The notes beneath the pieces were generated by a model that saw only the letters and a list, made by a program, of their open reading frames with translations, was not told where the DNA came from and did no database searches. From contig NZ_JAGKQQ010000001.1 of NCBI RefSeq assembly GCF_017939745.1, positions 4,774,001 through 4,838,000 of the forward strand: a DNA stretch of 64,000 nucleotides, in the 5' to 3' direction. Source of the stretch: Gemmata palustris. GTDB taxonomy: Bacteria > Planctomycetota > Planctomycetia > Gemmatales > Gemmataceae. Below, piece by piece: positions 8,901-44,586 of this stretch. Positions within the stretch are counted from its first letter, which is position 1. The number at the start of each line of letters is the position of its first letter. The translations under genes and the position numbers were made by a program.

Positions 8901-10511
8901 CGTGAACAGGTACGCGGTCCCGAGCAGCACGCCGACCTTCACGCCCTTCTCGGCGAGTGAAGCACTCAGCGCGGCAACCATGCTCGCAGAGAGCGCGTCG
9001 TGAATGCCGCCAGCGAACACGACGTGCAGGTCGTCCGCGGGCTTGTTGCCGATGCTCTCGATCAGGACTTCGACCATCGCTTCCCACAGCGCGAAACTCG
9101 CGCGCGGGCCGATGTGACCGCCGCACTCCTGGCCCTCGAAGATGAACCTCCGGGAACCGTCCTTGAGGAACATCTTCAGCAGGCCCGGCGACGGAACGTG
9201 CAGGTACGTCGGGATGCCCTGCACTTCCAGCTCGCGCGCCTGGTCCGGCCGGCCCCCGGCGATGATCGCGAACGGGGGCTTGTGCTTGCGGATCGCTTCG
9301 AGTTGTTCGCTGCGGATCTCGTTGGGCACGAACCCGAGGATGCCGACGCCCCACGGCTTCGCGCCGAGCTTCGCCTTCGTTTCGGCGAGCAACTTTTCCG
9401 TCTCTGCTTTGCGCAGCAGCGCGAGCGCCAGGAACGGCAGCGCCCCGCCCGCGGCCACGCTGTCCGCGAACGCGGCGGTGTCGCTGACACGGGTCATCGG
9501 GCCTTGCAGAATCGGGTACTTTGTGCCGTGCGATTTCGCGAGCGGCGCGTCCGGCGCGAGGTGCTTCAGGCGCTTCGCCGTTTCCAGTTGGTGCGTCACG
9601 CGCGCACAAATCGCCTGCACCACGCCCGCGACGGTGAGCCCCTTCGCCGCGAGCGGCGCCGCGTTCACCACGTCCTGCCCGCAGAGCCACACGCCCGCGG
9701 CCGGGTCCGCCGCGACACGCGTGCGAACCGCCTCGCGCCACGCGGCCAGTTTCTCGTCCGCGGAGAGGGTCGCGTGCTGGAGGCGCTCGTCTTCCTTCGC
9801 GAGTTCCTGTGCGCCGGCGCAATCGGGCCGCGCGTAAATGCGGTACCCCTCGCCGAGCTTCGCACCGAGAACGAGCGTCTCGCTCCCGTCCAGCCCGGTG
9901 ATGCGCTTCCGCGCGGCTTCGCGGAGCGGCGTTTCGCGCGTGAGGAGCACTTGCGAATCGAGGACGCCGCCGCGCGCGCCGCCCGCGGCACACGCGGCCG
10001 CCGTATTCGCGCCGATCCCCCCGCGCACCCAGAACGGAACCGTCACGCGGTTCTTGTCCGCGAACTGGCGCCACCGCTGGAGAAGCACGAACGACGTGTC
10101 CGCGCCCACGCGCCCGCCGGCCTCGTGGCCCTTCAGGACGACACCCGCGACCCCGAGTTCGACCGCGTGCGCGGCCTCGGCGACGCTCGTGGCCTCGCGC
10201 AAGACTTCAACGCCCGCCGCTTTCAAATCCCGAATGCGGGTCGCGAGCGCGGGGTGATCCGCCCCGGCGAGGATAACGAGAGCGGGTTTGAATTGACCGA
10301 GGAGGTCGAATAGGTCCGCGGCATCGGCGCGGAGTTGAACACCGAACCCGGTGGCGAACCTGGCGAGTTTGGTGAGTGCTTGGGACGCAAAAGGGCGGGA
10401 GCCGAACTCCAAGTCCAACACGCCACGCGCGCCTGCACGGCAGGCTGCAATGGCGAGTGACGGGTCGGCGGCTCCCGAAGGGGTCAAAACGATGAGGTCG
10501 CGCGGTTCCAT
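2943..10511 (-). CDS. Multidomain secondary-lipid/polyketide synthase NPD-NPD-KS-AT-ACP-KR
   Basis: 2522 aa from the ATG at 10511 (MEPRDLIVLTPSG), preferred over an ATG 69 bp upstream because the extra residues are low-complexity and basic. Domains in order: a first nitronate-monooxygenase/PfaD-like barrel (about 1-290, with WVRGGIGAN); a second one (about 330-650, with GPMTRVSDTAAF, GGHIGPR and VFAGGIHD); a ketosynthase (about 700-1150, active Cys near 888 in DAACGSS, His in EAHGTGT and in GHSKCAAG); an acyltransferase (about 1260-1590, Ser near 1360 in AGHSYGEYA); a long Pro/Asn/His-rich linker; one acyl carrier protein (Ser near 1901 in LGVDSIKRV); and a ketoreductase (about 2235-2480, VLVTGGARGI and a Ser-Tyr-Asn catalytic set around QSDYAAANEV). 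All catalytic residues look intact. PUFA synthases keep the PfaD barrel as a separate protein and carry several ACPs; here two barrels are fused N-terminally and only one ACP is present. The product is presumably a long-chain lipid or polyketide. Confidence 0.9.
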   Translation of the reverse strand: MEPRDLIVLTPSGAADPSLAIAACRAGARGVLDLEFGSRPFASQALTKLARFATGFGVQLRADAADLFDLLGQFKPALVILAGADHPALATRIRDLKAAGVEVLREATSVAEAAHAVELGVAGVVLKGHEAGGRVGADTSFVLLQRWRQFADKNRVTVPFWVRGGIGANTAAACAAGGARGGVLDSQVLLTRETPLREAARKRITGLDGSETLVLGAKLGEGYRIYARPDCAGAQELAKEDERLQHATLSADEKLAAWREAVRTRVAADPAAGVWLCGQDVVNAAPLAAKGLTVAGVVQAICARVTHQLETAKRLKHLAPDAPLAKSHGTKYPILQGPMTRVSDTAAFADSVAAGGALPFLALALLRKAETEKLLAETKAKLGAKPWGVGILGFVPNEIRSEQLEAIRKHKPPFAIIAGGRPDQARELEVQGIPTYLHVPSPGLLKMFLKDGSRRFIFEGQECGGHIGPRASFALWEAMVEVLIESIGNKPADDLHVVFAGGIHDALSASMVAALSASLAEKGVKVGVLLGTAYLFTKEAVRGGAITERFQKESLACADTVLLETGPGHAIRCIPTPYADVFDAEKRKLKAEGKTPLEVGIALERMNLGRLRVASKGVDRAPSVNGNGSGLADVSADEQFARGMYMIGQIAALRDKVTTVAELHANVTDSIILPESAARTQDLEPDAPPPCDVAIIGLSCFYPQSGSLWQYWENILAKTNAVIEIPPSHWDWRPYYDPDPRAKDKMVSKWGGFMSDITFDPLKYGITPKSIPNIEPLQLLLLEGVNQALGDAGYLDRPFARERTCAILGVGGGGMPLSVSYGFRACMPLLDSIPGVPVKSGEIVALGEGMLPEWTEDSFPGILLNVAAGRVANRFNLGGPNMAIDAACGSSLAALYAGVRELNDGTSDVAIVMGGDAVQTPYAYVAFSKTHALSPKGRCRPFDADADGIALAEGVGVAVLKRLADAERDGDRIYAVIKGVGASSDGRDKGLTAPRAEGQLRALHRAYAQARVNPSNVALVEAHGTGTVVGDQTEARAIGQLMREAGGDPQSCAIGSVKSMIGHSKCAAGLAGLIKTAFALHHKVLPPTLVEKPNPKANLDGGPLYLNTEAKPWVHGAEYPRTAGVSAFGFGGTNFHTVLEEYTGDYLNRPNTGIRQWPTELFVWRRADKAAITTSLKNVRDAIVAGARPTLADLAASVWQSSKGVATGSATLAVVASSLDDLKEKIDAALEALPKATETHADPRGIYFAAKSASAGKVAFLFPGQGSQYPDMLAQVAMAFSEVRDVLDRAEAALEADLDKPLSRFIYPPSSFTPEHEATNRNELRRTEIAQSSIGATSIGMFRLLAALGIEADFFAGHSYGEYAALTAAGALSEDDLMHLSFKRGLAIREAAVTAPGGMIAADNTAEAIAPVLKGIADVWIANHNSPTQTVIAGTEDGVKVAAEKLQAAGIRSQRIAVACGFHSPLIAGAKPALADALARAKFAAPSKPVFSNTSAAPHPADGGVIAKQLAEHLVSPVRFADEIRAMHEAGARVFVEVGPQAVLTGLTGQILAGRPHLALASDAKSRPGLVQLAHLLGQLLTAGVAANLDRLFVGRGVQAFDLAKLNAETGKPKLAPTTWLVNGVRSKPLNGPEPRLLGQALPANAAARSEPVRPDANGKAKSKPPSPESSTRPAAPPAPTPAPKLPAPSAAALPPAVTTPSRAMMHNTETQPALPVPSTNGHAHHHAAPDGAAAVMMRFQEVMGRFLDTQKSVMLGFLGASNGAAPAPQTNGHAAYPVVPHTNGHAYTNGNGNGHAHTNGHATPMPVPALATNRIATPVVARPQAPAPAVSNKAETNGKHAPAPVVEAAPVAAPVKKPAGGALDREALLARLLDLVSERTGYPKEALSIDLDLEADLGVDSIKRVEVLGALAESIEAGADGKQPNLEMEKLSVIKTLRGIADYVMGALNEAAPALPAPSTNGKHETPALPAAGGDAPAARASTNGDFHPGARQGEVQRLVVRLIDAPLPIRPKFSPPTGTIVITDDELGTARELADRLAELDIKTALVRVGKNEGFTADLTDPAAVTALLGRIREKCGPVSGLVHLLPLAEPPAGETDEQRMRREVKSLYLLARGLETDIRAAGTNGSAVLLAVTAMGGAMGFGDDLPGDFFAGHGGVAGFTKCLGYEWPEVTVRVVDVNAETAAPRLVEQLLGELGDPDGPFEVGRDGEFRKTWQVDPGPLEKDVQAIELDANSTVLVTGGARGITAKVALEIASRYKSKLVLVGSSPAPAAESADTASLQTPAEIKAALLKQQPGAKPAVIETAYKRLLKDREIRANLDAIRAAGGTAEYRSVDVRDAAAFGGLIDELSAKGGIAGVIHGAGVIEDKLLRDKTPESFDRVFGTKVESALTLSRKLDPAKLKFFALFASITSRYGNRGQSDYAAANEVLSKLACDLDRKWPGRVVSVAWGPWAEVGMVADLEKHLVSRGLKLIEPSVGAGFAVDEVIFGTKGEPEVVVAGGTESAPKQRATAQPVGAGAE

Positions 10512-36398: not shown

Positions 36399-37179
36399 GG
36401 TAGTGGCCCACCGGTTGGGATTGCTCTAAAGTGTTGGGATGCTGGACGCAACACCCCTCGTCCCCGATTCCGCCGTGCCCCCGGTGCGGTGCGACCCATG
36501 GTGCGCAACGGTCTCACCCACTCGGGCACTCCGGGGTTCCGGTGCCGGGGTGCGACCGGCGGTTCGTTGCGGACCCGAAGACCGGACCGGTCCCGGAGGC
36601 CACGAAGGATCTGGTGCGGCGCCTGTTGGCCGAGCGCATGGGAATCCGGGCCATCGCGCGGGCCGTCGGGGTGTCCCGGTCGTGGCTCCAAGGGTTCGTC
36701 AACGAGCTGTATCGACAGGAGACCCCACACGAGCCGGGACCGCCCCAAAAGTGCGGCCCGGTCGTGATCGAGGCCGACGAATTGTGGAGCTTCGTGGGTT
36801 CCAAGGGTGATGTCCATTGGGTCTGGGTAGCCCTGGACTTGGGCACCCGGCGGGTGCTCGCAATGGTTCTCGGGGACCGGTCCGCAGCCACGGCCCAACG
36901 GCTCTGGGACGCGCTCCCGCGCGGGTACCGGACCGGGGTCACCGTGTACACCGACTTCCTCGCCTCGTACCGTGGCGTGATCCCCGCGCCCGGCATCGAC
37001 CCGTGGGGCAAGGACACGGGCCTCACCGCCCACATCGAACGGTTCTGGCTTACCCTGAGACAACGATGCGCCCGACTCGTGCGCAAGACTCTCACGTTCT
37101 CCGCGCCCCAGGAACCACCTCGGCGCCTTGTGGTATTTCATACGCCTGTACAACGAATCCCGACATTAGGGCCACTACC
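36399..37179 (+). mobile_element. IS1-family insertion sequence, copy 1 (781 bp)
   Basis: The ends are perfect 11-bp inverted repeats, GGTAGTGGCCC (36399-36409) and its complement (37169-37179). They are bordered by an 8-bp direct repeat, AGATTTTC (36391-36398 and 37180-37187), the target-duplication length expected of the IS1 family. The single transposase region inside resembles IS1 InsB. A second copy is at 53605-55269. Confidence 0.93.
36431..37177 (+). pseudogene. IS1-type transposase, frame-damaged
   Basis: The N-terminal zinc ribbon (CPRCGATH ... CRGC) and HTH ([20 protein letters not shown]) precede the catalytic core: [53 protein letters not shown] and HIERFWLTLRQRCARL, which match IS1 InsB. 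Compared with copy 2, two bases (one TG unit) are missing in the zinc ribbon just after GATH. Both copies also need a -1 shift at CGGGGTGCGACC to rebuild the second CxxC. The C-terminus differs too: the expected LWYFIRLYNESRH is out of frame. The transposase is therefore probably inactive. Confidence 0.85.
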
Positions 37180-37411
37180 AGATTTTCCGTTACGTCGGCC
37201 CCTCGCCGGATGCGTTCCAAGAGTTCACCAGTGAATTGGGGCCATGCTGTTGCCGCACCGGATCTGATGAGCCCCCGTCAAGTACCCCTCAGTGTGAACT
37301 TCGGGTAGTAATAATCAACAAAAGACTTGTGCGTTACCCAACCGTGCTCGCCGACATCAAAGGCACAAGAGAGATCGTCGTAGATAGTGCCCCCCTAACG
37401 GTTGTTATGCT

Positions 37412-38382
37412 TTACGCATTCAGGAGTGACACATTGCCCCAGGTCTGGAAGTTGTGCGTCAACAGAGTGGCCAGCTTCTGGCGGTGTTTGGTCGTCAGAT
37501 CAGCCAGGCACCCGTCGATGGCGTCCTGAAACTTTTGATCCTGATGGTGGCGGCTGTTCAGAACTTCCATCTTGACGAACTTCCACAGTCGCTCGATCAG
37601 GTTCAGGTTGGGCGAGTAACTCGGCAGGAACAGCAACTCGATACCCAACTCCTTGGCCGCGCCCTGCACCAACGCGCACCGCTGGTACCGGGCGTTGTCC
37701 ATCACCAACGTGACCGGTATCGGCATCCCTCGGTTCGCGATCGTGCGGAGCAACGCACACCGAGGTCGCCGTGATGTAGGTCGTGTTGATCTCCGTCACC
37801 AGTTCGTGCGTGACCGCGTTGAGCGCGCCCAGCACGTTGTACCGCTGCCGGCCACTCGCCGCCCGCACATACAGCCGCACGAAGCACCACACCCACCCCA
37901 GGAACGACGCCAACACGAAGTGCGACGCGTCTACGAAATACACGGTCCGGTTACCGCCCCGAGCCTGCGCCAGCTTCGGTTCCAGTTCCGCCTTTTAAAA
38001 AGTCCGCCTGCGTTCGGGCGTGTTCCACGACGGTCTTCTTCGGTGGGACCGGGATTGGGGCCACCTTCAGGCACTTCATCCCCAGGTCGTCCTTCAGGAA
38101 CTTACGGACCCGTGATGGCTTCCGTCGGACGCCGGTCCGCTCCTCGATCCGCCGCGCGCGCGTCGAGCCGTGTGCGGCGGACGCGCGGAACTCCTCTTCG
38201 ATCGTGGCCCGGTGCGGCGTCAGGGCGCTGGGCTGGCCTTTCCAACCGAACGACCGGACGCCGTCCAGACCTTTGACCGCGAAGATCCGCAGCACCCGCT
38301 GGACCGTGGACCGCGACACATTGGCCAGCTCGGCGATGCACCCGTGGGTCTGGTTCTTGCTCTTGAGCCAAAGGATCTCCAT
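37412..38382 (-). pseudogene. IS630-family transposase remnant in three frames
   Basis: Read on the minus strand, an N-terminal HTH part starts at the ATG at 38382 (MEILWLKSKNQTHGCIAELA), with CAGGAG five bases upstream. It runs to the T5A4 tract near 37990. Dropping one A there continues the protein as KAELEPKLAQARGGNRTVYFVDASHF. A second break near 37755 is needed to reach VTLVMDNARYQRC and SYSPNLNLIERLWKFVK, the DDE_3 core of IS630 transposases. With two frame breaks it should be inactive, though the T5A4 break could be a slippage site. I could not identify convincing terminal repeats. Confidence 0.85.
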
Positions 38383-38424
38383 GGCTCCTGAACGCGCGGG
38401 TCCGGGTGCCCATACCGATCACGC

Positions 38425-38680
38425 GATCGCTTCGACCACGGCCTCGGGAAACGAATATGTGGGGCGCATCATCGGCCTCCCGAATACGGATTACGGCGAC
38501 AGGCCTATCCTCTGCTGACGAGCGCTGACCCGCAAGGACGACTTGTGTCACTTCAGGGGACGCCGAGAATAAGTTGACGATGAGGAGTTGCTTGGTGTCT
38601 TGGAAGGGGTCGGAGATCACCACCCAGAGATGGTGACCGTCCTTCCCCGCGTTGCGCACGAAACTGTCACCGGCGTCCAA
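38425..38680 (-). pseudogene. Putative toxin partner of Panacea antitoxin, probably truncated by frameshift
   Basis: Starting at a TTG (38680) that overlaps the antitoxin stop by 14 bases, the frame reads LDAGDSFVRNAGKDGHHLWV and on through VISDPFQDTKQLLIVNLFS. This is the conserved core of a small protein family that I recall next to TA-type partners. After that the frame stops resembling the family, while fragments such as PEAVVEAIA appear in another frame ending near 38425. The C-terminal half thus seems to have been broken by indels. Overlap with the antitoxin is typical of a TA operon. Mode of action is unknown. Confidence 0.5.
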
Positions 38681-39239
38681 CGGACGGCTCCGAGAATGTC
38701 GCCGCAATCAATTCCGCTTCGTGCTGAATGTGGCGCACCTCTCCCACCAAGGCGCCCGCGCCCTGATCGGCTAGCGCCACTTCCCAGTTGATCGGGTTGG
38801 CCTCTTCTGCAGCGTAGGCTTCCTTCCACTCACCGTAGGTGTGGGTCTGCTCCCACAGGGCTTCGGTGCTGGTTTCCCTGAAGCGCTCGCAAACCTCATG
38901 GAGCTTCCGTTCCTCGGCCTTCGTCAATTTCCCGGTCGGAACGAGCCGGTCCAGGAGAACATCGTCGCCGGCCCGGTGCATCGCACCGTTCCATTCGGTT
39001 TGCTCGTCGTTCGGCCCCCGCCCGTTGATGAGATTGTGAACTGTTTTCAGAGCCGGTCCCTTTGGCAGTGCAATCGCCTCATCACCCGTCAACGTGCGCC
39101 CGGTCTGGGCGAGCAACTCTCGGTCGGTGATGTAGAGGAGCTTGAGCAGACGAATGAAGTTTGCCCGCCCGCCGTGCTCACGCAGAACGACCGCCGCCGC
39201 CTGAAACGCCTTCGGAAATTTGAACTTAAACGTCAGCAT
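38667..39239 (-). CDS. Panacea-domain (DUF4065/SocA-like) antitoxin
   Basis: 190 aa from the ATG at 39239 (MLTFKFKFPKAFQAAAVVL). The first 100 residues match the Panacea domain: LLKLLYITDRELLAQTGRTL, then DEAIALPKGPALKTVHNLIN. Panacea proteins neutralise many unrelated toxins, and SocA of Caulobacter belongs to this family. The C-terminal half (LVPTGKLTKAEERKLHEVCE...) is helical and typical. The stop codon overlaps the small downstream reading frame with a toxin-like core, so this is the antitoxin of a two-gene module lying next to mobile-element debris. Confidence 0.82.
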   Translation of the reverse strand: MLTFKFKFPKAFQAAAVVLREHGGRANFIRLLKLLYITDRELLAQTGRTLTGDEAIALPKGPALKTVHNLINGRGPNDEQTEWNGAMHRAGDDVLLDRLVPTGKLTKAEERKLHEVCERFRETSTEALWEQTHTYGEWKEAYAAEEANPINWEVALADQGAGALVGEVRHIQHEAELIAATFSEPSVGRR

Positions 39240-39617: not shown

Positions 39618-42600
39618 TTACATTACCGGCTGTTGCCAGGGAACATCGACGCGCGCGTGGGTCGGCGAGCCGGCCGCCAGCATGAGCTGGTAGGCGTCGC
39701 GCGCGTAATCGCCCAACTGCGGCAGGTCCGTTAGCGTGATCTGCGGGTACTCGCGGTAGAAGCAAATGTCGTCCGGGAGCGGCGCGCCGACGAACTCCGT
39801 GTTGGGGAGCACGATCTTGGCGAGTTCCTTCAGCCGGTCGCCGTCGGTCCCGGGCGGAGCCGCCAGCACCACCATCTCGTAGGGCCGCGGATAAATGTTC
39901 GGCACGAGTTCCGGCGCGGCCTCTTCAAACGCTTCGCCCAGGAGCGGCTGCGCGGTCCCGTTCTCCGTGCGCGAGCGGAAGAACACCGCGGCCGCGTCGG
40001 AGTGGTCGAGCTTCGCGTCGAGGAACTCGCGGGCCTTGTTCAGCAGCATGTCGCGGAACACCGGCCCCTTTTCGAGCGGCTTGAGGCACACGTTCCCGAG
40101 CCCGCGGAACTTGCGCGTGATGTCCTTCTGGAGCGACTGGTCGAAGGCGAGCAGGTCTTCCGGGGCGAGTGCGGCGAGGAACTGGTCGGCGGCCTCGTCC
40201 AGGTTCTTGCACCCGTCCGGGAGGATCAACTTGCCCGGCGAGGCGTCCGTGTTGCTCGCCGCGCCGAGCTTCGTGAGGGCCGCGTGCATCTCGCCCAGCG
40301 TGGACCGGCAGAAGTTGATCTCGCGCAGGTACTCGGGAGCGTTCCCCGCGAGCTTGCGGAACACGGACAGTGCGAGGTCCAGAACGTGCAGTTGCAGGCG
40401 CTTCTTGGCGTACACTCGGAGCAGATCAATAACATCCGCGGCGTTCGCTTTGCGCGACGCCATCGCGCCCAGGCCCGTACCACCCAGCCCGCCGATCGCG
40501 TGGAACAGGCGCGCGTAGATCGAGCGCACCTCCTTGTCGAGATCGACTCGCACCGGCTCCAGCGCTTCCACCTGGAGCTTCAGCTTCTCGCTTATCTGCC
40601 GGACGGCTTCTTCCGCGCCGGGCAGCCGGTACTGCGGCACTTCCAGGAACGTCGCGGCCATCACCGAGACGTGCCCCTCGGTCTCCTTCACCAGCTCCTC
40701 GAACTTGATGCCCATCGCGGCCTGGAGCGAACTCGGCTGCGGGTCGTTCTCACAGTCCGGTTTGCCGACCAGTTTGATGAGCTGATCGAGGACCGCGCAC
40801 GCGGACGTGGCGTCCAGCCGCCCGCCGGACGGGGTGCGCGTCCGCAGCGGGTCGATGAACGCATCGAAGACGCGCTCGGGGTCCTCGCGCAAGCTGGCCC
40901 GGGCGGACTCCTGGAGCGATTCGACGATGGACTCGAACGACAGTTTCCGCTCGGCCCACTGTTGCGCCAGCCAGCCGGCGATGTGCTCCCGCAGGTGCCC
41001 CGCGTCCTTGCCGGTCCAGCGCTGGAGTTGGCGCTGCGCGAACCGCCGGGTCGCGGCCCCGAGCACCTCGGGGCGCGGCCAGCTCAGGCGGAACAGGCCG
41101 AACGTCTGGCACGCGGGCGCATCGGTCGGGTAGGCGTGGCGGTACACGTCCCGGCCCTCGTCCGCGACGCGGCCGGCCGGCGTGAGCAGTTCGTGGTACA
41201 GGACGCGCGCCGCGGACGCGAGGACCGGGCGCGACGCATTGGCGTCCGCCCCCTTCGGGAGCTGTGACACCATCGTTCGCGCGAACGGCGGTTCGCTGTC
41301 GGTGATCGGGGCCTCGGACTTGTCGAACACCGTCTGATACCGCGTCTTCCGCGCCTGGAAGTGGTACAGTTCGGAGAGCGCCGCGTAGGTGTTCGCGAGG
41401 GCCGTCGAGCGCGGCGAGGTCACATCGGCCGGCGGAACGAAGAACATGCCGACCACTTCCGGCCGCAAGTACCCGACCTGGCGCATCTCGTGGCGCACCA
41501 GGTACGCCATGTCGAGGAACATCCCGCTGCCGGTACCGCCCGCCAGCCCCGCGACGACGTAGGCGCGGGGGCGGTTGGTCCGCAGCCCGAGCTTGGTGAT
41601 CTTATCGGCCTGCATCAGCGCGTCGTCGGTCAGGAACGTCTCGATCTCCTGGCGCACCCGCTGGGCGACGGTGCGGTAGTGATCGAAGAGCGCGAGCCGC
41701 CCGAACGCGCGCACGCCGGCGGCCGGGCCGGGGTTGCGCGGGAGCTTGTAGAGCGAGCCGGTCGGCATCCACTGTTCGACGGGCGGGAGCGTGTCCCGCT
41801 GCATGTAGTGGGTCGAGCGGTTCAGGCGGGCCGGAATGATTTCCCGCGCGGTCAGCCCCGCGGGGACGTCCGGGGACTGTTGGGCGCCTACTTCCGGGTC
41901 CGTATCGATGTACAGGATGCGCACGTTGGGTACCCGGTCCGCCGACCCGTACCGGTCGGCGATCACGCGCCTGAGTTGCTCCGCGACGCGGTACCCGGTC
42001 TGGCCCAGGGCGATCACGAGCGCGGGGAACAGGGCGCCGTCGCCGGACTTCTCGGGCGGCGCGATACCCATGCTCCCCATGCGCCCGGTCTGGAAGATCA
42101 CGGGGCGGTTGAGCGTCTGGGCCGGGTGCTGGGTGGACACCGAGCTGGGGGTCACGAGCCGGGCGCCGGACCCGGGCGGGATGAGCCCCGGGAGCGGCGT
42201 GTAGTTCTGACCGGGCTTGACGAGCGGCGGTAAGTTCGTGGGCGGCGGGGTCTGTTCGCGGAACGGGGGGGCGTGTTCGGCGCTGGGGCGCCCCTGCCCG
42301 GCCATCCGGGTGGCCTGGATCGAGTCGGCGAGCGCGTGCCCGGACGGGTTGGGCATCGTGGGGGCGCCGGACCCGGGCACAGCGCGCCCGGACCGCGAGG
42401 GGCTCACCGGCGTCGGGGGCGCGGGCGGCAAGCCGCTCGTCCGCAGGGCGCGGACCATGTCCGTACAAGTGGGCCACCGGTCGTCCGGCTTCTTGGAAAG
42501 CCCCCGCCCGATCACCGCCCGGTCCCCGACGGGTAGAGCGCTCAGATCCGGCGTGCCGTTGATGTGCTGCATCAGCAGCGCGCGAGTGTTCGCGCCGTTG

Positions 42601-43259
42601 AACGGCCGGTGCCCGGTGAGCAGTTCCTGGAACACGATCGCGAGGCTGTACTGGTCGGAGAACCGCGACACCCACCCCTCGAACGTTTCGGGGGCCGCGT
42701 ACACGGGGGTGACACCGCCGGTCACGGTCGCGCGGACGCCTTCGAGCACCTTCGCCAGACCGAAGTCGGCCACCTTCACGTGGTTGAAGATGAGGAACAG
42801 GTTCTGCGGTTTCACGTCGAGGTGCTGGATCTGATAGTAGTTGTTCATCAGATCGAGCCCCTCGGCGGCTTCGTCCATGTACCGGAGAAGCTCGTCGCGC
42901 GGGACGCCCGGCAGACCCTGTCCGCGGCACTCGCGGAACCGGTCCCAGAGGTTGCGGTCGGCCAGCTCCATTACGATAATGAGCTGGCCGTCGATGATGC
43001 GGAACTGTTCGAGGGTGAGGATGTACGGGTGGCGGATGAGCTTCACCCGCTCGAGCGCTTTGAGCTCCTGCTCGGCCGGGCGGCTGTCCTCGTCCATCGC
43101 GTCGAGGTCGCCGAAAACGAACTTGGCCGCCTTGAGCATCCCGCCCGGCGCTTCGATCTTCCAAACTTCGCCGAACCCGCCCCGACCGAGGCGCTCGATC
43201 AGCCGGTACCCGTTAAGCGGGTGTGGGAGTTCTTCCTGGCTGACCAAGCGAACCGGCAT
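39618..43259 (-). CDS. Hanks-type Ser/Thr kinase fused to a tubulin-like (Tubulin_2) domain
   Basis: 1213 aa from the ATG at 43259 (MPVRLVSQEE), where the kinase homology begins. The kinase (about 18-280) has GRGGFGEV, the VAIK-type Lys at 46, HLDVKPQN (146-153; the usual Arg of HRD is Leu), DFGLAK (165) and AAPETF. A Pro-rich linker (about 285-410) follows. From about 412 the sequence is a tubulin/FtsZ-like GTPase: ALVIALGQTGYRVAEQLRR, ILYIDTDPEV, and the nucleotide-binding GLAGGTGSGMF (571-581) that corresponds to the tubulin G-box. The last 450 residues (helical, EFVGAPLPDDICF near the end) complete the large Tubulin_2-type protein. There is no TM segment. A kinase could phosphorylate or regulate its own filament, or a GTP-driven scaffold could gather the kinase. 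No partner gene is adjacent. Confidence 0.9.
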   Translation of the reverse strand: MPVRLVSQEELPHPLNGYRLIERLGRGGFGEVWKIEAPGGMLKAAKFVFGDLDAMDEDSRPAEQELKALERVKLIRHPYILTLEQFRIIDGQLIIVMELADRNLWDRFRECRGQGLPGVPRDELLRYMDEAAEGLDLMNNYYQIQHLDVKPQNLFLIFNHVKVADFGLAKVLEGVRATVTGGVTPVYAAPETFEGWVSRFSDQYSLAIVFQELLTGHRPFNGANTRALLMQHINGTPDLSALPVGDRAVIGRGLSKKPDDRWPTCTDMVRALRTSGLPPAPPTPVSPSRSGRAVPGSGAPTMPNPSGHALADSIQATRMAGQGRPSAEHAPPFREQTPPPTNLPPLVKPGQNYTPLPGLIPPGSGARLVTPSSVSTQHPAQTLNRPVIFQTGRMGSMGIAPPEKSGDGALFPALVIALGQTGYRVAEQLRRVIADRYGSADRVPNVRILYIDTDPEVGAQQSPDVPAGLTAREIIPARLNRSTHYMQRDTLPPVEQWMPTGSLYKLPRNPGPAAGVRAFGRLALFDHYRTVAQRVRQEIETFLTDDALMQADKITKLGLRTNRPRAYVVAGLAGGTGSGMFLDMAYLVRHEMRQVGYLRPEVVGMFFVPPADVTSPRSTALANTYAALSELYHFQARKTRYQTVFDKSEAPITDSEPPFARTMVSQLPKGADANASRPVLASAARVLYHELLTPAGRVADEGRDVYRHAYPTDAPACQTFGLFRLSWPRPEVLGAATRRFAQRQLQRWTGKDAGHLREHIAGWLAQQWAERKLSFESIVESLQESARASLREDPERVFDAFIDPLRTRTPSGGRLDATSACAVLDQLIKLVGKPDCENDPQPSSLQAAMGIKFEELVKETEGHVSVMAATFLEVPQYRLPGAEEAVRQISEKLKLQVEALEPVRVDLDKEVRSIYARLFHAIGGLGGTGLGAMASRKANAADVIDLLRVYAKKRLQLHVLDLALSVFRKLAGNAPEYLREINFCRSTLGEMHAALTKLGAASNTDASPGKLILPDGCKNLDEAADQFLAALAPEDLLAFDQSLQKDITRKFRGLGNVCLKPLEKGPVFRDMLLNKAREFLDAKLDHSDAAAVFFRSRTENGTAQPLLGEAFEEAAPELVPNIYPRPYEMVVLAAPPGTDGDRLKELAKIVLPNTEFVGAPLPDDICFYREYPQITLTDLPQLGDYARDAYQLMLAAGSPTHARVDVPWQQPVM

Positions 43260-43872
43260 GACTGGGGGCCGCCTTGAATGACCAAACCGTAACCGCCGAC
43301 CGGCGCTCGGCGCGGACGGATTGCGGGGTGGGGGGCTACTAGTTTGTAGTTCAGGGTGTGAGGTTTGGCAAAAATGTGCCCGGCGAGTCGGAACTCGTTC
43401 GCGCCACATCTAAATGCCGCTCCGCTTTTGTGTAGTATCTCGCGTTTTTTGTGAAGTAACCCCGGGGTGTGGTCCTCGTGTCTGGCATGAAAACAACTCA
43501 ATTCCGAACTCGGCCGATTCACAAACACGGACCGATTTTGTCCCCCGCGACGAAATTCTTCAACCATCAACCCGAAGATCGGGCGCGAATGATCGCTCCG
43601 GACCTGAAGGGATCTATGCCCCCGCGCGATACGGCCCTCGGGTTCCGCCCCGAGGGGCTTTTCGGGTTCGGGTTCCAAGTTGCACGCCCGATCGCGTATC
43701 ATGTCCGCCCCGGACGGATTTTGTGCCCCACGGTGGAAGGAATCACCCGGCACCGGCTGACGCCGGAGACGCGGAATTTGAAGCACCAGACCCGAAACGA
43801 GGCGGAGGGTGTGGCTCTCAAATTTCGCGCTTCAAAGTCCGAATTTGGTTTCACGGAAGGAATCACCCTGTC
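43260..43872. other. 613-bp divergent intergenic region
   Basis: This separates the kinase-tubulin gene from the MfnB-like gene. It contains a CTCGGGTTCCGCCCCGAG hairpin near 43632 and the short sequence GGAAGGAATCACCC twice (about 43736 and 43856), the second directly before the MfnB start. I see no credible coding frame and no known RNA. Confidence 0.4.
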
Positions 43873-44586
43873 ATGAGTACCACGCCCGGATTGCTGGTCA
43901 GCGTGCGGTCGGCGGACGAAGTTGCAGCGGCACTGGCCGGCGGAGCCGACCTGATCGATGTGAAAGAACCCGCGAAGGGACCGCTCGCCCCGGCCGAGGC
44001 CGAAGTCGTGGCCGCCGTCATTGATGCAGTCGACGGGCAGGTCTCCGTGAGTGCCGCGCTGGGCGAGTGGTCGCCCAACGCCATCACCGAGGCCCACTGG
44101 CACCTGGAACTGCCGCTTCAGTACGTGAAGTGGGGACTCGCGGGGTACGCCCCGACGCCGGGATGGGGCGAAGACCTGCTCGACACGCGGCGCGAACTGC
44201 CGATCGGCACGGAAATGGTCGCGGTGGCCTACGCAGACTGGGAGCGGGCGAAGTCGGTCCCGCCTGCAGAAGTCGCGAAATTCGCCAAGCGGTTCCGGTT
44301 CAAAGCGTTCCTGCTCGATACGTGGGGCAAGGACGGTAAGACGCTCCTCGACTTCATGACCGCGAAAGAGATCGCCGGCTTGGTGGACGGGTTGAAGCGC
44401 GTTTACACGACCGTGGTGATCGGCGGCTCGCTGCGTCCGGAACAAGTGAAGCAACTCAAGGGCGTGGCGCCGGACTATTTCGCGGTGCGGACCTCGGCCT
44501 GCGCCGCGGGCAAGCGCGACGGCGTCATCGACGCGACCCGCGTCAAGAAGTGGAAAGAAGTCCTCGCGGGGGTGAAGGTGTCGTGA
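43873..44586 (+). CDS. MfnB-like (5-formylfuran-3-yl)methyl phosphate synthase
   Basis: 237 aa from the ATG at 43873 (MSTTPGLLVSVRSADE). It is a class I aldolase-like TIM barrel matching the DUF556/MfnB family: LVSVRSADEVAAALAGGADL, IDVKEPAKGPLAPAE with the catalytic-type Lys, YVKWGLAGY, FKAFLLDTWGKDGKTL and PDYFAVRTSAC. In methanogens MfnB condenses two molecules of glyceraldehyde-3-phosphate into the furan precursor of methanofuran. Planctomycetes carry homologues together with tetrahydromethanopterin-linked C1 enzymes, so a methanofuran-like cofactor role is likely. The next gene overlaps its stop (GTGA), so the two are co-translated. Confidence 0.85.
   Translation: MSTTPGLLVSVRSADEVAAALAGGADLIDVKEPAKGPLAPAEAEVVAAVIDAVDGQVSVSAALGEWSPNAITEAHWHLELPLQYVKWGLAGYAPTPGWGEDLLDTRRELPIGTEMVAVAYADWERAKSVPPAEVAKFAKRFRFKAFLLDTWGKDGKTLLDFMTAKEIAGLVDGLKRVYTTVVIGGSLRPEQVKQLKGVAPDYFAVRTSACAAGKRDGVIDATRVKKWKEVLAGVKVS

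Follow-up and report, generated by a model that had tools for sequence, protein, structure and literature searches.

What might a protein do that carries a protein kinase and a tubulin in one chain? The question is raised by a gene in the 64,000-nucleotide stretch of the Gemmata palustris genome that we analysed (the window: positions 4,774,001 to 4,838,000 of contig NZ_JAGKQQ010000001.1, assembly GCF_017939745.1), which encodes a Ser/Thr kinase, a linker and a tubulin-like second half. Makarova and Koonin (PMC2875224) noted such a fusion in 2010, in a single sentence on four planctomycete proteins, and a passage of PMC9871819 mentioned it again in 2023; a 2024 study of planctomycete kinases (PMC11032199) mentions tubulin once. 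Noticed in 2010, the fusion seems to have gone unstudied since. Here we describe its predicted complete but split tubulin fold, two types of the protein, their joint retention and an apparently ancestral locus, none of which we found in the open-access literature.

A preliminary description made from the sequence alone had claimed a complete Hanks-type kinase, a long Pro-rich linker and a tubulin-like domain with the loop GLAGGTGSG, and all three hold. Pfam Pkinase matches residues 18-235 of the 1213-residue protein (E 7.7e-29), and the Gly-rich loop, Lys46, HLDVKPQN, DFG and APE are all in place, as in Hanks-type Ser/Thr kinases, though the catalytic motif reads HLD and not HRD. The linker, counted here as residues 273-405, holds 28 Pro and 25 Ser or Thr among its 133 residues. 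Tubulin_2 (PF13809) matches residues 414-743 over profile positions 1-353 of 356 (E 2.1e-43); at 149.4 bits against a cut-off of 27 the protein belongs to the Tubulin_2 or FtsZl1 family, whereas its PF00091 (FtsZ) score of 16.4 bits lies below the cut-off of 33. Its T4 loop, AGGTGSG, agrees with the tubulin-superfamily signature GGGTG(S/T)G. An alternative in-frame ATG at 43409 would give 1263 residues; the alignment with the two paralogues starts near the Met of the 1213-residue form. These paralogues (C1:5127048 and C2:38681 in a genome of 9.23 Mb in three contigs) both encode a kinase and Tubulin_2, and align over their full length at 39% and 33% identity to the window protein. The closest match to its tubulin half comes from Gemmata sp. 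IIL30 (88% identity), and named carriers of relatives include Limnoglobus roseus PX52 and Zavarzinella formosa DSM 19928. The genera named among the relatives (Gemmata, Limnoglobus, Zavarzinella, Fimbriiglobus) agree with a place of the window in Gemmataceae.

Is the second half a tubulin throughout? A phmmer search of the PDB with this half returned only two weak Tet-repressor matches and thus no solved relative by sequence, so that structure prediction was needed. An AlphaFold2 model of residues 404-1213, built on an alignment of 60 sequences (59 loci and the window protein), has a mean pLDDT (predicted local distance difference test) of 89.2 and a pTM (predicted template modelling score) of 0.75. 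In a Foldseek search of the PDB it comes closest to CetZ, tubulins and FtsZ (best E 7.9e-5, probability 1.00). VIA-align superposes 300 residues on CetZ 3zid_B at 3.5 A with a Z of 27.0, from 7 to 794 of the model and from 1 to 343 of CetZ; BtubB, alpha-, beta- and gamma-tubulin and TubZ are matched as well. The region between the two ends of the fold is nearly all helix, with long helices at 441-470, 475-523 and 527-597 in model numbering. A long coiled-coil or helical region after the FtsZ-like part is a feature of FtsZl1 proteins, and the model shows it here as helices.

Residues 404-751 folded alone show what the far end contributes. The best match falls to a Z of 19.9 over 226 residues and ends at CetZ residue 248 (3zid_A), other CetZ matches of this shortened model ending at residues 242 and 309. 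The strand at model positions 313-323, confident in the long model, drops to a mean pLDDT of 54-57; values lie below 50 at 318-325, and just two residues of 313-323 remain strand. Because the match shrinks and this strand is destabilised when the far end is removed, it is most likely the last ~100 residues that round off the tubulin intermediate domain in the model, with ~370 mostly helical residues inserted within it. The second half is therefore predicted to be a tubulin fold complete in both domains but interrupted by a helical insertion; the preliminary description would have fallen with a second half of another fold, and the model shows a tubulin. In the passage on FtsZl1 by Makarova and Koonin (PMC2875224), the T6-H7 elements were not confidently identified and the C-terminal domain could not be related to FtsZ, a question that our model would answer, as a prediction. 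Asp700, in the putative T7 loop, sits at a fitting place in the model, and the corresponding position carries Asp or Glu in 56 of 63 rows of the AB type and 40 of 41 of the C type (types defined below). A hydropathy scan found a 19-residue stretch above 1.6 in 33 of 105 rows, which in 25 of these falls on the first tubulin strand, and we therefore claim no membrane segment.

The family falls into two types. A FastTree tree of 105 proteins (102 with kinase motifs and three without a kinase at contig ends; long branches flagged) separates 41 C-type from 63 AB-type proteins by a branch with support 100. Within AB, A and B lie in head-to-tail tandem in ten genomes, and some rows, called ab, are not cleanly assignable to either. 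Since genomes with two types and no A/B pair mostly hold one AB and one C protein, A and B parted later, within AB; the AB/C split is ancient. Three paralogues as the ancestral state were rejected on the same ground. The types differ in the loop that would contact the nucleotide. In the C type, T4 is one residue shorter in all 41 rows, and position 576 is Thr in three and Ser in 23; among the 63 AB rows, 62 have the full-length loop, and the same position is Thr in 58 and Ser in five. Nearly all rows retain the T1 glycines and the DTD aspartates (at least 60 of 63 for AB and 41 of 41 for C). As the C loop is altered rather than gone, a loss of GTP binding cannot be concluded.

The kinase is the most conserved part. 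Lys46, His146, Asp148, Lys150, Asn153 and DFG are invariant in every row that covers them (60-62 of 63 for AB and 39-40 of 41 for C, the rest being gaps). Over 800 random pairs, the kinase averages a pairwise identity of 0.61, the tubulin half 0.30 and the linker 0.20, and the kinases of AB and C are still 0.565 identical to each other. The contrast between kinase and tubulin half points to a stronger constraint on what the kinase does. Nearest to it in the window genome are two other kinases, 56% identical, with all others far weaker (next 42%). These two (L209:4413-6386, minus strand, and L210:4257-6311, plus strand; G and L numbers are our handles for genomes and loci) carry a weak match to PilZ at the C terminus (E 7.5e-5 and 4.9e-4); this would connect the kinase subfamily to cyclic-di-GMP.

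We followed the gene in 61 genomes of the same family as the window and 198 other genomes of the phylum. Tubulin_2 is matched in 50 of the 61; among the 44 family genomes of good quality, 22 have at least three matches (some of them gene pieces), 11 have two, six have one and five have none. From 70 loci, 62 were read for the kinase motif; 60 have it and two start at a contig end. A second alignment took in 48 loci and the window. Leaving out two genomes with weak, divergent matches (G019 and G046), 41 of the 59 genomes hold both AB and C, four only AB, three only C and 11 neither (Fisher p 1.4e-6, a value that overstates independence because kinship is uncorrected). AB and C thus form a co-retained pair, in 41 of 48 typed genomes, and both keep the kinase. 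The divergent frames of G019 (L206) and G046 (L205) come from one genus and were recognised neither as AB nor as C. The highest-scoring Tubulin_2 match among the family genomes, at 192.7 bits, is a 1201-residue frame, L006 (G031:C1:5260-6468), which is not A, B or C by tblastn and stands outside the tree; it may be unfused or of a different kind. Elsewhere in the phylum, Tubulin_2 is matched in eight of the 198 genomes, seven above the cut-off. Of seven genomes outside the family checked by motif, only G181, of the same class, has an in-frame kinase, the frame in G097 being cut at its 5' end; the G181 protein (L080) belongs to another family and, with its long branch, was left unplaced in the tree. 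One planctomycete outside the family (L077) has two adjoining Tubulin_2 frames without kinase motif (matches near 9221 and 12108, plus strand), the second of which matches the profile from position 155 on and lacks the T4 motif; they are perhaps an independent pair of one intact and one degenerate copy. Two loci titled Bacteroidales bacterium UW1SPNA076 (L102, L139) carry Gemmataceae-like kinase-tubulin genes, and the title is probably wrong.

What, then, could the fusion do? We tentatively favour, as quite possible though short of probable, a soluble kinase scaffold controlled by GTP, in which GTP-dependent assembly gathers and activates the attached kinases. Well-studied tubulin relatives respond to GTP by assembly, and a constrained kinase on a flexible tether, joined to a domain of this kind, suggests that assembly activates the kinases. 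The sequences and the model agree with such a scaffold in the active-looking kinase, the flexible linker, the split but complete tubulin fold and the two co-retained subunit types. The AB type would bind GTP and form end-to-end stacks held together at the T4 and T7 faces, either by itself or in alternation with C, which, with its altered phosphate loop and its acidic T7-like residue, may serve as partner or cap. Stacking would collect many kinase domains, leading to their mutual activation and to phosphorylation of a shared target, and GTP hydrolysis or phosphorylation of the linker could end the signal.

Several observations weigh against the scaffold. Even when normalised by target length, no Foldseek TM-score (template modelling) against a tubulin reaches 0.5, and the T7 assignment depends on the model. 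Position 576 is still Ser or Thr in 26 of 41 C rows, and within AB a residue other than Gly stands at position 575 in 11 of 63 rows, while one row is shortened as in C. One C row has Gln for the Glu of APE. Seven of the 48 typed genomes have one type only, four of these (G013, G021, G026, G054) being 91-94% complete, and Tubulin_2 finds no match in 11 of the 61 family genomes, so that not every member of the family needs such a protein. Finally, we found no polymerisation, GTPase or kinase assay of any member in the literature.

The main rival reverses the direction: the tubulin part would be the working polymer, handling shape, membrane or chromosome, and the kinase would control how it assembles, with the linker, the helical insertion or adjacent subunits as its substrates. 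In other bacteria, Ser/Thr kinases phosphorylate FtsZ and affect its interactions or its tail binding, according to passages of PMC6052341 and PMC12747378; the linker is rich in Ser and Thr, and no FtsZ was found in the window genome. However, the tubulin half is far less conserved than the kinase, and the C type keeps its kinase despite the phosphate loop shortened in every row; we consider this reversal rather unlikely.

Two further readings concern how the subunits would meet. AB and C could form an obligate heteropolymer, the only tubulin cytoskeleton of the cell, in which AB carries the GTP and C, its phosphate loop altered but its acidic T7-like residue intact, supplies the hydrolysing loop, much as alpha-tubulin does for beta-tubulin, and which switches on the kinases that it displays; we hold this bolder form to be unlikely. 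Still less probable is a monomeric GTP switch that forms no filaments, the tubulin fold being merely a sensor domain for the kinase. In known tubulins, the intermediate domain and the T7 acidic residue are needed for end-to-end contacts, and the presence here of a predicted intermediate domain and a T7-like acidic residue argues against it, although such contacts might be hindered by the bulk of the N-terminal portion and the insertion. The passage of Makarova and Koonin on FtsZl1 likewise allowed for non-filamentous members and thought this less likely (PMC2875224).

The features of the fusion gene and its conserved neighbour are collected in Table 1.

Table 1. Kinase-tubulin gene of the window, its parts and its divergent neighbour (window positions).
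Feature	Position	Strand	Remarks
Whole gene, kinase-linker-split tubulin	39618..43259	-	1213 aa, A-type
Ser/Thr kinase domain, residues 14-275 (Pfam 18-235)	42435..43220	-	Lys46, Asp148, Asn153, Asp165 kept
Pro/Ser/Thr-rich linker, ~residues 276-403	42051..42434	-	Poorly conserved, mean identity 0.20
Tubulin fold, first part, residues 404-748	41016..42050	-	Pfam and model
T4-type phosphate loop GLAGGTGSG, residues 571-579	41523..41549	-	Sequence and alignment
T7-like loop PAGRVADEGR, residues 694-703, acidic Asp700	41151..41180	-	Putative T7, placed between two model helices
Helical insertion within tubulin fold, ~residues 749-1115, three long helices	39915..41015	-	Model
Tubulin fold, second part, ~residues 1116-1213, three strands and two helices, conserved C-terminal HxRxDV	39621..39914	-	Model and alignment
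4-HFC-P synthase family gene, divergent neighbour, marker of the ancestral locus	43873..44586	+	Conserved synteny; no functional link claimed

Does the place of the gene point to a process? Because a simple gene caller overlooked scpA in L073 and called no Tubulin_2 frame in L077 or L081, surroundings were read by tblastn and by frame. In 19 of the 38 AB cases with enough upstream sequence, the 3.8 kb before the tubulin part contain a gene for 4-HFC-P synthase, an ASCH-domain protein or both, divergent from the AB gene in the loci displayed by tblastn. Of the 46 AB cases with enough downstream sequence, nine, from nine genera, have scpA, which encodes the kleisin of the SMC complex, on the same strand within the next 1.5 kb, and in 12 another tubulin gene is next. 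For the C type, the first flank was found in 0 of 32 cases and scpA in 0 of 38. Both flanks surround the single AB gene of G026, which suggests that its arrangement is the ancestral AB locus. The window gene retains the 4-HFC-P synthase flank, while its own scpA is ~2.7 Mb distant. From scpA, chromosome handling or the cell cycle may be guessed, weakly, as the process served by the scaffold; we do not take this neighbour as proof of function, as it is missing behind 37 of the 46 AB genes whose downstream sequence extends for 1.5 kb or more. On balance, the fusion is a vertically inherited chromosomal gene.

The preliminary description had also remarked that planctomycetes of this group lack the usual FtsZ. 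This is borne out in the window genome, where PF00091 has no match, against 13 of 14 control genomes that have one. A PF00091 profile search likewise found no conventional FtsZ in the 61 family genomes, many of which are drafts. At E values up to 0.1, 16 of them give a match, one of these lying above the cut-off, inside a Tubulin_2 frame; the matches at G041 C111 and G018 C548 (E 0.06-0.1), outside Tubulin_2 frames, were taken as chance. One may ask whether the kinase-tubulin replaces FtsZ as the division protein, as this absence and scpA behind AB-type genes in nine genomes would fit. The 11 family genomes that match neither family, among them G014 and G029, rated 100% complete, argue against a simple replacement, as do the few Tubulin_2 matches in the rest of the phylum, and we judge it very unlikely.

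A defence or conflict system, like those built on vWA, GTPase and tubulin proteins, was the alternative raised by the preliminary description. In print, vWA proteins are the usual partners of FtsZl1, with GTPases also named, and the majority of members, not all, lie in operons with vWA, GTPase or OmpA genes. Scanning a sample of neighbours in the family (eight window proteins, six cluster representatives and ten others), we found no vWA or OmpA gene. The eight window neighbours gave no vWA or GTPase match, GAP1 not having been searched for; the 16 others gave one weak P-loop GTPase match, with DUF697, 82 bp downstream of a B gene (L061:12276-13442). An operon with vWA, GTPase or OmpA, common in FtsZl1 but not defining for it, is thus not seen here. 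Outside the family, an unfused planctomycete Tubulin_2 protein (L078) adjoins a vWA protein, as printed for FtsZl1, and another (L079) a PKD-repeat protein.

Downstream of the fusion, the window has an IS1-type transposase gene by Pfam (36431-37234, plus strand), broken frames that look transposase-like by eye (~37400-38500, minus strand) and, 379 bp from the fusion and near the transposase genes, a SocA/Panacea antitoxin-like gene (38667-39239, minus strand) with no relative in the other clustered loci. Matches to PADLOC were set aside, as they cover the kinase part only (the best 25 of 26), and a viral origin was rejected, a pattern scan of viral contigs having found no relative. The relevant parts of Kaur et al. 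(2020; PMC7159879) restrict tubulin-centred conflict systems to Firmicutes and Actinobacteria and report GAP1-N2 systems without tubulin from planctomycetes (section 29). Although such tubulin proteins in other phyla, the tubulin-less planctomycete systems, the vWA neighbour of L078, the SocA-like gene and the L061 GTPase match lend it something, we do not favour defence and judge it very unlikely, since AB genes hold their place by housekeeping genes in half of the testable cases and copies follow the tree of types as if inherited vertically, the SocA-like gene is confined to the window among the clustered loci, the best PADLOC matches see only the kinase, and the pattern scan of viral contigs gave no relative. 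The anatomy and the missing FtsZ of the preliminary description stand, its cytoskeletal signalling device would fit the evidence, and its defence alternative is not favoured.

How planctomycetes without FtsZ organise their cells is a standing question. In the window genome, the sole recognisable tubulin-superfamily proteins are three large proteins that are also kinases, and across genomes the kinase-tubulins form a conserved set with distinct nucleotide loops. Tubulin and kinase are usually linked as separate proteins; here they share one chain, so that cause and effect can be tested by point mutants.

Known systems share parts of this design. The GAP1-N2 systems, as described in passages of Kaur et al. 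(PMC7159879), likewise place a helical or coiled-coil region behind the tubulin domain, but they come from Firmicutes and Actinobacteria and lie in GTPase, GAP1 and vWA neighbourhoods not seen here. Of the solved structures, archaeal CetZ (3zid, 4b45) is the best match, at a Z of 27.0 over 300 residues, with 12% identity over the aligned part; the CetZ chain compared has 342 residues, and CetZ is not known to have a kinase or a comparable insertion. BtubA and BtubB share the fold (2btq_B, Z 22.8) and are a paralogue pair like A and B here, which are tandem in ten genomes; they are close to eukaryotic tubulin and not known to bear a kinase, and a heteromer of A and B would be hypothetical. Nearest is FtsZl1 itself, which in the passages of Makarova and Koonin (2010; PMC2875224) has the same domain family, the T4 loop, a long helical region after the FtsZ-like part and, in the four planctomycete proteins, the same N-terminal kinase. 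Unlike FtsZl1 as printed there, the proteins of this family have no vWA or OmpA gene among the neighbours scanned, occur as up to three co-retained paralogues, one type of which has a shortened T4 loop, and are predicted by our model to possess the remainder of the tubulin fold.

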